Shown piece after piece: positions 13,965 through 34,531 of a stretch of 64,000 nucleotides of DNA (the first letter of the stretch is position 1; the number at the start of each line of letters is the position of its first letter). The notes below the pieces were generated by a model. It saw only the letters and a program-made list of their open reading frames with translations, did no database searches and was not told the DNA's origin. A program made the position numbers and the translations under genes. Source of the stretch: Mycolicibacterium tusciae JS617 (GTDB lineage: Bacteria; Actinomycetota; Actinomycetes; Mycobacteriales; Mycobacteriaceae); NCBI RefSeq assembly GCF_000243415.2, contig NZ_KI912270.1, positions 868,001 through 932,000 on the forward strand, written 5' to 3'.

Positions 13965-13981
13965 CGTCAACGCATCGCCCT

Positions 13982-14190
13982 TGTGCGGGAGAGTTCCGTG
14001 ACCGCCAGCCACGGACGCCGAAGGAGCAACACCTCTCCGTCAACCTCTCAGGCACCCCGGACCGCTCAGGGCCCCGATGTCTCTGGAAAGTGGTGGGCTC
14101 AGGCCTACCCGCCCATGGGGAAAGGCATATCTCGCATTCGCTGCGGGGCGCCGAATCTCTCAGGCACCGACGACAGAGGGAGAGGAACCC
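13982..14190 (+). promoter_or_regulatory. Tandem glycine riboswitch
   Basis: Two glycine aptamers in series precede gcvP. The first (about 13985-14072) has GGGAGAG, the conserved core GACGCCGAAGGAGCAA and CTCTCAGGCAC. The second (about 14078-14187) opens with CTCTGGAAAG, has GGCGCCGAATCTCTCAGG and closes with GACAGAGGGAGAG. This is the usual two-aptamer plan that raises expression of glycine cleavage genes when glycine is abundant. About 40 nt separate the last aptamer from the GTG start. No clear intrinsic terminator follows, so control at translation is as likely as at termination. Confidence 0.92.
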
Positions 14191-30091: not shown

Positions 30092-30508
30092 TCAGCCGGC
30101 GCCGAGCTCGCCAGCGGGTGGCGATATCCGGTGCTTGGTTTCCAACTCGGACAGGGCACGACGCAGAGCCGCGGCCTCATCGGCATTGACGCGCTCAACG
30201 AAATGCACCAGCGCCGCCTCCCGACCACCCGAGTCCGCAGCTTGATCCAGGGCATCGACCATCAACCCGGCCACCAGTTCGTCGCGCCCGTGCGTCGGGG
30301 CGTATCGATGGGCGCGGTCATCGCGATGCTGAACGACGAGGTTCTTCTTCGCCAGCCGCTGCAAGACGGTCATGATCGTGGTGTAGGCAAGGTCGCGCCT
30401 GGCCGCGAGTGCCTCGTGTACCTGGCGCACGGTCTGGGGCTCTCGCGCGGACCACAGGTGGTCCATCACTGCGCGTTCGAGTTCTCCTAAACGCGTCATC
30501 TTGGCCAT
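30092..30508 (-). CDS. blaI: BlaI/CopY-family transcriptional repressor
   Basis: 138-aa winged-helix repressor closely matching M. tuberculosis BlaI (Rv1846c), which represses beta-lactamase, its own operon and several respiratory genes. The N-terminal wHTH contains LGELERAVMDHLWS and DLAYTTIMTVLQRLAKKNLV; a C-terminal dimerisation helix follows (ALVHFVERVNADEAAALRRA). The start matches the tuberculosis protein. Autoregulation is likely: TACTAC repeats lie upstream (30529-30563). Confidence 0.96.
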   Translation of the reverse strand: MAKMTRLGELERAVMDHLWSAREPQTVRQVHEALAARRDLAYTTIMTVLQRLAKKNLVVQHRDDRAHRYAPTHGRDELVAGLMVDALDQAADSGGREAALVHFVERVNADEAAALRRALSELETKHRISPPAGELGAG

Positions 30509-30710: not shown

Positions 30711-30729
30711 TATAGTAAGGCTAACCTAA
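30711..30729 (+). promoter_or_regulatory. IdeR iron box upstream of the FhuF-like gene
   Basis: TATAGTAAGGCTAACCTAA agrees with the IdeR consensus TTAGGTTAGGCTAACCTAA at 15 of 19 positions, with a perfect right half. It includes a TATAGT -10-like hexamer, so iron-loaded IdeR would block the promoter. It lies 20 nt before the ATG; a GGGAGG ribosome site sits between. Confidence 0.8.
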
Positions 30730-30748: not shown

Positions 30749-31537
30749 ATGACGGTTCTGGTCGACGACCCGCTCATCTCGAGCATGGCCATCGCACAGT
30801 CGCTGCCGTTGCACGAGTCGAGCCGCCGGCTGCGCGAGCTCTATCCCGAATGTCCGAGGGTCTACGGCGTCGCGGTGATCGGTGACTTGTCGCGCAGGCG
30901 ATGGTGGCCGCTGACGCAAGCGCTGAGGACCGACCGGCTGCATTCGATGTTCAAGCTCGCGGCCGAAGAGACCGATAACCGCGCCGCGGTGACCCAGCAG
31001 CTCGCCGCGACCTTGGCGCACGTGGTCATCGGTCGAGTCGTGCCGCTGCTCGTGTTGGAGGGCCGCGCCTGGGACACCGGGCTGGAGAACCTGTGGGTGC
31101 ACGTGGATTCCGAGGGTGCGATCGACTGGGTCGGGGTCGTCGATCCGACGCTGCGCGCCCTGCCCGACGACCCATTCTTCGGTGGGCGCTCGGCGGCCAG
31201 GTCAAATGGTGCTGCCCGCGACGGGATCGTCGCCCTGCCCAACGAGTCCGCGCTGACGACGTGGATCGCACACCGTAGCCATCGCACCCTCGCGCCGCTG
31301 TTCGGCAAGCTTGCCGAGGTCAGCGGGTCGGCGATCTCGATTGCGGCGATGTGGCACATCGTCGGCGCCGCAGTGGTGGGCGCGGCGACCCAGGTGCCCG
31401 TATTGGCGGGTTCGAGCGAGCTGACCAGCATGCGCCGCGGTCAAGCAGTGCTTGACGCGCTGGTCGGATTCGGTCTGCCGGTTCGGGGCGCCCGACGAAC
31501 TTCGGCGCGAGGCGGAACGAAGGGCTTGCTAAATTAG
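30749..31537 (+). CDS. FhuF-like iron-acquisition protein (putative siderophore-iron reductase)
   Basis: 262-aa protein whose C-terminal half (HRTLAPLFGKLAEVSGSAIS, then AMWHIVGAAVVGAATQVP) resembles the FhuF ferric-siderophore reductase family and the related IucA/IucC tail. The paired cysteines that hold the 2Fe-2S cluster in classical FhuF are absent; the only Cys is near residue 35 (YPECPRVY). Redox activity is therefore uncertain, and siderophore binding is an alternative. A strong IdeR-like box directly upstream supports iron-starvation induction. It is inserted between blaI and the mrsI/Rv1847 region relative to M. tuberculosis. No signal peptide, so probably cytoplasmic. Confidence 0.75.
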   Translation: MTVLVDDPLISSMAIAQSLPLHESSRRLRELYPECPRVYGVAVIGDLSRRRWWPLTQALRTDRLHSMFKLAAEETDNRAAVTQQLAATLAHVVIGRVVPLLVLEGRAWDTGLENLWVHVDSEGAIDWVGVVDPTLRALPDDPFFGGRSAARSNGAARDGIVALPNESALTTWIAHRSHRTLAPLFGKLAEVSGSAISIAAMWHIVGAAVVGAATQVPVLAGSSELTSMRRGQAVLDALVGFGLPVRGARRTSARGGTKGLLN

Positions 31538-31555
31538 GGCAGCCTTGCCTATGCT
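31526..31555 (+). promoter_or_regulatory. MrsI promoter with IdeR box
   Basis: -35 TTGCTA (31526-31531), an 18-nt spacer and -10 TATGCT (31550-31555). The IdeR-like box TTAGGGCAGCCTTGCCTAT (31534-31552) fills the spacer and overlaps the -10; its halves are near-perfect inverted copies (TTAGG/CCTA). The -35 and part of the box lie in the last codons of the FhuF-like gene. Confidence 0.82.
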
Positions 31556-31561
31556 CTTGAC

Positions 31562-31667
31562 AGATCAAACTTGAACCACCGGACCGCACCGGAGTCCTGA
31601 GGGCTGCAGAGACTCCCGGTCCACACGAAGGACGAGCCCCGCACAATGTGCGGGGCTCGTCCGCTTT
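31562..31667 (+). ncRNA. mrsI: Small RNA MrsI (iron-sparing sRNA)
   Basis: Predicted ~105-nt sRNA between an IdeR-controlled promoter and an intrinsic terminator, directly upstream of the Rv1847 homologue. M. tuberculosis MrsI (ncRv11846) occupies the same site and represses non-essential iron proteins during iron limitation. The predicted transcript holds a nested hairpin: GGACCG (near 31579) with CGGTCC, and GGAGTC with GACTCC, closing a loop CTGAGGGCTGCAGA and leaving a CACC bulge. That loop is a natural candidate for target pairing. No ORF is present. The 5' end is inferred from the -10. Confidence 0.85.
31631..31667 (+). terminator. Intrinsic terminator of MrsI
   Basis: Perfect 14-bp stem: GACGAGCCCCGCAC (31631-31644) and GTGCGGGGCTCGTC (31648-31661), 3-nt loop AAT, followed by CGCTTTT. 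One of the two clearest terminators in the window. Confidence 0.92.
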
Positions 31668-31718
31668 TCCGGGCATCCGACGCGGGCGGTTCCGGCATCA
31701 CCGTGTAGACAAATCTGC

Positions 31719-32123
31719 GTGACGACAGACATCCCGCCCGGCTTGGGTGCCGGATTCGACTCCGCGATCGGCCTCGAATTCGTCGAGCTGACCCCCGACG
31801 GCGGCAGCGCCCGCCTTCAGATCGACGACAAGCTGCTGCAACCGTGGGGGATCGTGCACGGCGGCGTGTACTGCTCGATCATCGAGAGTCTGGCCAGCGT
31901 TTCGGGACAGGTCTGGCTCAGCGAGAACGGCGGCGGTCATGTCGTCGGGGTCAACAACAACACCGATTTCCTGCGCGCCATCTCCGCGGGGACGGTGACG
32001 GCGGTTTCGGTGCCGATCCACCGCGGCCGTCGCCAGCAGCTGTGGCTGATCACCATCACCGACGAGAAAGAGCGAGTGGTGGCGCGGGGTCAAGTGCGAC
32101 TCCAGAACCTGCCGGCCGAGTAA
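31719..32123 (+). CDS. PaaI-family hotdog thioesterase (Rv1847-like)
   Basis: 134-aa hotdog-fold acyl-CoA thioesterase. The family signature is visible: PWGIVHGGVYCSIIESLASV (HGGxxxxxxD/E-type motif), with VGVNNNTDFLRAISAG and a C-terminal RGQVRLQNLP strand. GTG 31719 is chosen. It follows MrsI by about 50 nt and precedes ureA by 55 nt, so it may be cotranscribed with urease. Substrate unknown. Confidence 0.9.
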   Translation: MTTDIPPGLGAGFDSAIGLEFVELTPDGGSARLQIDDKLLQPWGIVHGGVYCSIIESLASVSGQVWLSENGGGHVVGVNNNTDFLRAISAGTVTAVSVPIHRGRRQQLWLITITDEKERVVARGQVRLQNLPAE

Positions 32124-32813: not shown

Positions 32814-34531
32814 GCGCTGTTTCCCGGGCCAGGTACGCGGCACTGTTCGGGCCGACCACCGGCGACCGCATCCGGCTGGCCGATACGGATCTATTCGTCG
32901 AGATCACCGAGGATCGCAGTGGCGGACCGGGTCTGGCGGGCGACGAGGCGGTGTTCGGTGGCGGCAAGGTGCTGCGCGAGTCGATGGGGCAGGGCCGCGC
33001 TACTAGGGCTGAGGGCGCACCCGACACGGTGATCACCGGTGTCGTGATCATCGACCACTGGGGAATCATCAAAGCCGACATCGGCATTCGCGACGGTCGC
33101 ATCACCGCGATCGGCAAAGCGGGCAATCCCGACGTCATGTCCGGTGTACATCCCGATCTGGTGGTCGGTCCGTCGACCGAGATCATCGCGGGCAACGGCC
33201 GGATCGTCACCGCCGGCGGTATCGACTGCCACGTGCACCTCATCTGTCCTCAGATCAAGGAGGAAGCGCTCGGCGGTGGAATCACCACGATCATCGCCGG
33301 CGGTACCGGGCCCGCGGAGGGCAGCAAGGCCACCACGGTCACTCCCGGGGCGTGGCACCTGGGCCGCATGCTGGAGGCCCTGGACTCCTGGCCGATGAAC
33401 ATCGCGCTGCTCGGCAAGGGCAACACCGTGAGCGCCGAGTCGATGTGGGAGCAATTGCGCGGTGGCGCTTCGGGTTTCAAGCTGCATGAAGATTGGGGTT
33501 CGACGCCCGCGGCGATCGACGCTTGCCTGTCCGTGGCAGACGCGTCCGGGGTGCAGGTAGCTCTGCACTCGGACACCCTCAACGAGGCCGGTTTCGTCGA
33601 GGACACAATCGGCGCGATCAACGGGCGGTCGATTCACGCGTACCACACCGAGGGCGCCGGCGGCGGGCACGCGCCGGACATCATCCGCGTCGCAGCCGAA
33701 CCGTACGTGCTGCCGAGTTCGACGAATCCCACCCGCCCGCACACCGTCAACACGCTCGACGAGCACCTCGACATGTTGATGGTGTGCCATCACCTCAACC
33801 CTGCGGTGCCAGAGGATCTCGCGTTCGCCGAAAGCCGCATCCGGCCGTCGACGATGGCCGCCGAGGATCTGCTTCACGACATCGGCGCGATATCGATGAT
33901 CGGCAGTGACTCCCAGGCCATGGGCCGCATCGGCGAGGTGGTGATCCGCACCTGGCAGACCGCCCACGTGATGAAGCGACGACGCGGCGCACTACCCGGC
34001 GACGGGCCCGCCGACAACAACCGTGCTCGCCGATACGTCGCGAAATACACGATCTGTCCGGCCGTCGCCCATGGGCTCGACCACGAGATCGGTTCGATCG
34101 AGGTCGGCAAGCTCGCCGACCTGGTGCTGTGGGAGCCGGCGTTCTTCGGCGTGCGCCCGCATGCGGTGATCAAAGGCGGGATGATCGCCTGGGCGGCAAT
34201 GGGCGACGCGAACGCATCGATCCCCACACCGCAGCCGGTGCTGCCGAGACCGATGTTCGGTGCGGAGCCGGCGGCCGCGGCGGCGACGTCGGTGCACTTC
34301 GTGTCTCCACAGGCCATCGATGACAGGCTGGCCGACCGGCTCGCCGTCAACCGCAGGCTCGTCGCGGTCAAGGACGTGCGCGGGGTCGGGAAAGCCGAAA
34401 TGCCGCTCAACAACGCGCTTCCCGAGATCGAGGTCGACCCCGATACCTTCACGGTGCGCATCGACGGCGACGTCTGGCAGGAAGACCCTGCCGTCGAACT
34501 GCCGATGGCGCAACGCTATTTTCTGTTTTAG
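32810..34531 (+). CDS. ureC: Urease alpha (catalytic) subunit
   Basis: 573-aa catalytic subunit with all dinuclear nickel ligands: H141 and H143 (DCHVHL), carbamylated K224 ([10 protein letters not shown]), H253 (VALHSD), H279 (HAYHTEG) and D367 (GSDSQA). The flap cysteine is C326 in MVCHHLNP. The structural genes are followed at once by ureF, ureG and ureD, the nickel-insertion chaperones. No ureE is present, as in M. tuberculosis. Confidence 0.98.

Follow-up and report, generated by a model that had tools for sequence, protein, structure and literature searches.

The short stretch between a FhuF-fold gene and a thioesterase gene in Mycolicibacterium tusciae JS617 raises the question of which RNA is encoded there, how it might be controlled and which genes it might act upon. 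We studied it within a 64-kb stretch of DNA (hereafter the window), in which an earlier note had recognised the iron-sparing small RNA MrsI with an IdeR box in its promoter. A BlaI-type repressor gene (30092-30508, PF03965, the position of Rv1846c) lies on the minus strand, as does an M48/M56-type peptidase gene. On the plus strand follow the gene of a FhuF-fold protein (30749-31537, 262 aa), the small RNA and its downstream neighbour, a 4HBT thioesterase gene (31719-32123, PF03061, the position of Rv1847). The genes beyond the thioesterase are presumably urease genes, and we take the whole region to correspond to Rv1845c-Rv1848.

The promoter elements can be read directly from the plus strand, where the earlier note had put them: a -35-like hexamer TTGCTA (31526-31531), an IdeR box TTAGGGCAGCCTTGCCTAT spanning the promoter spacer (31534-31552) and, at 18-bp spacing from the -35, a -10-like hexamer TATGCT (31550-31555). 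One detail of that layout had to be corrected, namely that the frame of the upstream gene crosses the -35 hexamer and ends within the IdeR box, its TAG stop occupying 31535-31537. Counting from the -10 hexamer, the predicted transcript of about 105 nt would cover 31562-31667 (+). The IdeR-type pattern TTAGGNNAGCCTNNCCTA was found at this single place in the window at 0 mismatches (mean of 0.04 in shuffles), and with 2 mismatches the only further match was the reverse strand of the same place. The exact 19-mer of the box has one copy in the whole 7.3-Mb genome, and a box with at most 2 mismatches stands at the sRNA in 29 of the 29 loci found by BLAST (L003-L031). Generic sigma-70 and U-tract terminator scans, which covered 31300-31900, made no calls, because by those rules both hexamers count as weak, as does the U-tract, which is short (CTTTT); the case for promoter and terminator therefore rests on other evidence. 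Further downstream, directly before the GTG start of the thioesterase (31719), we noted the stretch GTGTAGACA at 31703-31711, which was found again in many relatives and looks like a -10 element serving a separate, leaderless thioesterase mRNA.

According to the portions of the published accounts that were accessible, MrsI (ncRv11846) of M. tuberculosis is an RNA of about 100 nt at 2096766-2096867 (+), between blaI and Rv1847; it has an IdeR box, a seed of 6 nt (or 6-8 nt) and an apical loop of 7 nt, and acts on bfrA, fprA and hypF (PMC8628891, PMC11188477, PMC12101431). The M. tusciae RNA lies between blaI and the position of Rv1847, on the strand of Rv1847, with one extra gene on the blaI side. 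It has the IdeR box at its promoter, is about 100 nt long with its 5′ end placed from the -10 hexamer, and is structured and closed by a 3′ terminator. Its 7-nt apical loop and 6-nt seed agree in length with the accessible published descriptions, which give lengths and no letters, and its likeness in target is one of sequence, as complementarity to the bfrA leader. Location, strand, size, IdeR box, terminator, loop and bfrA site, all shared with the MrsI of M. tuberculosis and M. smegmatis, bear out the earlier identification and support the view that this sRNA is an MrsI orthologue, hence of a known kind, with orthology to the M. tuberculosis RNA drawn from features rather than from an alignment. 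The M. tusciae locus differs from those of the two species in that blaI and the sRNA are separated by a FhuF-fold gene, which has an IdeR-like box of its own; and the target proposed here is the region before a hydrogenase small-subunit gene, whereas the accessible parts of the reviews name hypF. RyhB of enterics, PrrF of Pseudomonas, FsrA of Bacillus and IsrR of Staphylococcus are likewise iron-sparing RNAs that repress dispensable iron proteins; MrsI is not known to share sequence with any of them.

A search of the sRNA region against Rfam 15, which the earlier note had proposed as a check, brought no match at the gathering score and sub-threshold matches only. Elsewhere in the window two Rfam families were matched. 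One is the glycine riboswitch aptamer (RF00504, 56.9 bits) at 13976-14074 (+). The other, 5_ureB_sRNA (RF02514, 59.5 bits), lies at 32977-33263 (-), antisense within a frame that we take to be ureC, and here the model probably cross-matches the conserved coding sequence of urease, so that no genuine antisense RNA need be assumed. A second MrsI-like stretch in the genome, at G000:C4:1642815-1642838, lies inside a reading frame (presumably that of a PhzF-type protein) without such a hairpin, and we took it for a coding coincidence. An exact copy of the 19-nt core was absent from IMG/VR.

Folding of 31560-31667 (108 nt) gave -57.1 kcal/mol (z -6.8), an energy that none of 200 shuffles reached and to which the terminator contributes much. 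The terminator hairpin (31630-31662, +) has arms at 31630-31644 and 31648-31662 and a loop AAT; the earlier note was right about its presence and one pair short on its stem, which has 15 pairs rather than 14. We aligned 67 sequences from BLAST loci and pattern-scan loci, thinned by similarity, and counted two-sided changes in 19 of 29 pairs (143 cells) of the whole structure, against shuffle means of 10.3 pairs and 36.4 cells, the counted structure being the window's own fold and so biased in favour over slid controls. Of the 14 modelled terminator pairs, 13 are so changed. In the 5′ hairpin alone (31581-31622, +), which would present the seed, 6 of 15 pairs have two-sided changes, in 20 cells (2.6 pairs and 4.0 cells on average in shuffles); one of its pairs, at columns 32-55, is formed in the window and unpaired in 54 of the 67 sequences. 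The RNAalifold consensus put a different hairpin in the 5′ half, with two-sided changes in 0 of its 7 pairs there, so we counted the minimum-free-energy hairpin of the window instead.

The earlier note had taken the 14-nt stretch CTGAGGGCTGCAGA for the apical loop, but its ends pair as CUG/CAG. This loop-closing stem is swapped to CAG/CUG in 2 loci of the genus and reads CCG/CGG in 4 loci outside it, the pairs being kept in both cases; one further copy of the loop letters, closed by GCG/CGC, was counted with its place in the genomes left aside. Since the swaps keep the pairs, the apical loop is the 7-nt AGGGCUG (31600-31606, +), within which lies the seed GGGCUG (31601-31606, +). Loop letters in the pattern-scan loci would be circular evidence, the pattern having contained CTGAGGGCTGCAG, and we used the BLAST and covariance-model sets instead. 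A comparison across mycobacteria, as the earlier note had envisaged, found AGGGCUG constant in 29 of 29 BLAST loci, and it recurred in 21 of the 21 covariance-model loci read outside the genus, where 27 genomes matched a model whose training sequences mostly carry this loop.

With BLAST, the RNA was found in 31 of 61 genomes, all within the genus (31 of the 37 genus genomes sampled, our own included). The covariance model reached further, matching 173 of 198 sampled genus genomes, again with our own (166 of 185 among the good ones), and, over the order, 68 of 397 genomes. Of these 68, 37 belong to the genus and 27 to nine other genera in its family, and 4 are weak matches in another family. 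The four weak matches, in family f15, were treated as chance; at the one inspected (L193), the IdeR-like box, thioesterase, FhuF-fold gene and loop were all absent. Nine genomes listed for genus g27, which has genomes of 2.2-2.9 Mb, had no covariance-model match. At the loci read outside the genus (from 21 of the 27 matching genomes) an IdeR-like box with at most 3 mismatches, two of them borderline, stood at the start in 21 of 21, and a thioesterase lay downstream in every one. Among the pattern-scan matches listed outside Mycobacterium are Prescottella defluvii, R. xishaensis, two Antrihabitans, Smaragdicoccus and Rhodococcus sp. RD6.2, KRD197 and SMB37.

The neighbourhood is also conserved, and this changes how the gene upstream is to be seen. 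Its description as a coding gene inserted between the sRNA and blaI finds no support: among the 135 loci with at least 900 nt of upstream sequence a FhuF-fold gene stands directly upstream of the sRNA in 76, including Rhodococcus-type genera, and blaI adjoins the sRNA in its place in 57. On the downstream side, 128 of 131 loci have a thioesterase no more than 1300 nt away. The FhuF-fold gene is preceded by its own IdeR-like box, TATAGTAAGGCTAACCTAA (30711-30729, +), which was the sole match in the window to TTAGGTWAGSCTWACCTAA at up to 3 mismatches (0 in shuffles), and a similar box with at most 5 mismatches was found in 40 of 43 chosen orthologues, three of the 40 being doubtful.

The FhuF fold, used as a test of the protein encoded upstream, was found in it. 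Set against the ferric-siderophore reductase FhuF (PF06276; PDB 7qp5), the window protein differs in having no Pfam or NCBIfam match; PF06276 was matched, mostly weakly, by 13 of its 40 relatives. Siderophore synthetases such as AcsD and IucA score as high as FhuF or higher against it. FhuF carries [2Fe-2S] cysteines, which seem to be missing from the window protein and its relatives, since the 40 aligned relatives have no invariant or near-invariant cysteine column.

We then turn to the genes that the loop might recognise. The bfrA gene of M. tusciae lies 58 kb downstream, and CAGCCCTCA (G000:C4:958088-958096), starting 24 nt before its first ATG, is the full complement of the 9-nt sRNA stretch UGAGGGCUG (31598-31606, +). 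Mononucleotide shuffles paired as strongly in 0.8% of cases. The hexamer CAGCCC, complement of GGGCUG, is found in the 75-nt stretch ahead of bfrA in 20 of 25 sRNA-bearing genomes of the genus (one of these, G716, counted as bearing the sRNA from a promoter-side match only, and the second bfrA copies of G004 and G024 left out) and is missing in 5. In 2000 shuffles the mean was 2.4 and the largest count 9, four other 75-nt regions gave 0-2 of 25, and CAGCCC is the commonest hexamer in the 75 nt before bfrA in these 25 genomes. Outside the genus it precedes bfrA in 2 of 6 genomes with a BfrA match, from a search of 30 genomes in which 7 matched, our own among them. Six genomes of the genus, G016, G022, G097, G102, G125 and G174 (4.3-5.3 Mb), have no covariance-model match to MrsI, and CAGCCC stands before bfrA in 1 of the 6 and is lacking in the other 5, so that sRNA and bfrA site seem to be absent together there.

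A pattern search of the genome also surfaced the small subunit of a [NiFe]-hydrogenase with CAGCCC before its start. We gathered a set of our own genome and the 16 gene-bearing genomes among 44 searched, and found CAGCCC within 75 nt before the Huc-type small-subunit gene in 12 of 17 and missing in 5; 1000 shuffles had a mean of 1.1 and a largest count of 6, and six other regions gave 0-1 of 17. In this set alone CAGCCC ranks fifth, behind four Shine-Dalgarno hexamers. The sites lie at -31/-32 or at -51 to -58, so that they seem to have been retained although their position shifted. In M. tusciae itself the hydrogenase pairing energy does not go beyond shuffles, 21% of mononucleotide shuffles being as strong.

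Downstream of the small subunit, on the same strand, are genes for the large subunit, HycI, a NifU-Rieske protein, an NHL protein, HypF and HypC; of these, the NifU-Rieske protein agrees with HucE as given in the accessible part of a description of the Huc operon (PMC6883350). On the upstream side, a DUF1641 gene of the same orientation stops 83 nt short of the small-subunit start, so close that CAGCCC may lie inside an operon, between two of its genes, and not at an mRNA 5′ end. This genome has two hypF genes. The one in the hydrogenase cluster has CAGCCC 59 nt before the GTG of its longest frame, a position well ahead of the likely start; for the other no CAGCCC was listed close before it. 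A hydrogenase gene whose upstream site is often conserved precedes hypF, and this could plausibly explain the presence of hypF in published MrsI profiles.

When the bfrA and hydrogenase sets were pooled, CAGCCC came first of 4096 hexamers (32 of 42), in counts that are not independent and are inflated by kinship among the compared genomes. Across 15 hexamers taken along the conserved hairpin, the loop hexamer has the highest count for both targets. Genome-wide, CAGCCCT before starts was not enriched (14 against 33 for the reversed pattern), and CAGCCC together with AGGAG gave 32 places against 16. Loci were available for 30 of these 32 places, 20 with a frame of at least 80 aa (L310 left out); many of the 30 are unconvincing as gene starts, several lying inside longer frames, and genome-wide target prediction by pattern is thus noisy. 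CAGCCC with a Shine-Dalgarno sequence was also seen before genes for SufB, a cytochrome P450 and an MBL-rhodanese protein, further candidate targets, at G000:C4:1369907-1369955 (L321), 2931686-2931711 (L328) and 776328-776364 (L317). Near-identical CAGCCCAAAACTGCCCACAACAAGGTGAGGAG stretches precede a start at G000:C4:1244882, 2771182 and 5928465, and these three are probably a repeat family rather than independent targets.

Taken as a whole, the locus very likely encodes an IdeR-controlled MrsI orthologue that uses its loop as a seed to repress bfrA and probably the Huc small subunit. The comparison demonstrates the structure by covariation, the distribution and the conservation of boxes and target sites; by analogy with the MrsI already described, we infer IdeR binding, transcription and repression as follows. 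With plentiful iron, iron-loaded IdeR would occupy the box between the -35 and -10 hexamers and block transcription; with scarce iron the block would be lifted, and an RNA of about 105 nt would be made and stopped at the terminator hairpin. This RNA would expose GGGCUG in the 7-nt loop that caps a strong hairpin, and the seed would pair with CAGCCC shortly upstream of the ribosome-binding sites of dispensable iron-user genes, lowering expression chiefly of the bacterioferritin gene bfrA and probably of the Huc-type [NiFe]-hydrogenase small subunit. Since the FhuF-fold gene has its own IdeR-like box, it would be switched on together with the sRNA.

The element might instead belong chiefly to the FhuF-fold mRNA as its 3′ end, a terminator and 3′-UTR RNA set free from it, and the inner box would then serve as a roadblock or as a secondary promoter. 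In 31 of 43 orthologues the FhuF-fold frame does end inside the box, just past it or beside it (no box was found in 8 of the 43), and the box before that gene would suit such an arrangement. However, blaI rather than the FhuF-fold gene adjoins box and RNA in the 57 loci mentioned above, and the M. tuberculosis RNA is described, in the accessible part of PMC11188477, with a start site of its own; we regard this explanation as unlikely. It is distinctly improbable, in our judgement, that the RNA is homologous to MrsI and without an iron-sparing role in this species, its bfrA and hydrogenase matches being fortuitous. The lack of genome-wide enrichment of CAGCCCT and the unremarkable hydrogenase pairing energy would agree with this, but the 9-nt match before the organism's own bfrA and the CAGCCC sites found at more than one position across many genomes argue against it. 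We give the least credence to a locus without any sRNA, made up of a promoter of the downstream thioesterase with an attenuator. The frequent nearness of the thioesterase invites the idea; yet many relatives have an GTGTAGACA-like element directly ahead of the thioesterase, 3 of 131 loci showed no thioesterase within 1300 nt, and the loop is conserved though a terminator would have no need of loop letters.

MrsI itself is already known, and the putative extensions made here are its wider distribution, its FhuF-fold partner and the hydrogenase target. In the accessible portions of the literature we found neither a report of MrsI in bacteria other than mycobacteria nor one that names a hydrogenase structural gene among its direct targets, which is no proof of absence.

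These results point to a precise seed backed by evolutionary evidence and widen the range of the iron-sparing RNA by nine genera of the family. They also offer a plausible reason why hypF is among the MrsI-regulated genes. More tentatively, and at somewhat less than even chances, we propose that MrsI, rather than being peculiar to mycobacteria, belongs to an ancient two-part system under IdeR control, made up of a FhuF-fold protein and an AGGGCUG-loop sRNA, which would predate Mycobacterium, and that in environmental mycobacteria the sRNA would directly repress the Huc genes, so that iron would gate the burning of atmospheric hydrogen. Iron limitation would thereby be linked to hydrogen oxidation in a directly testable way.
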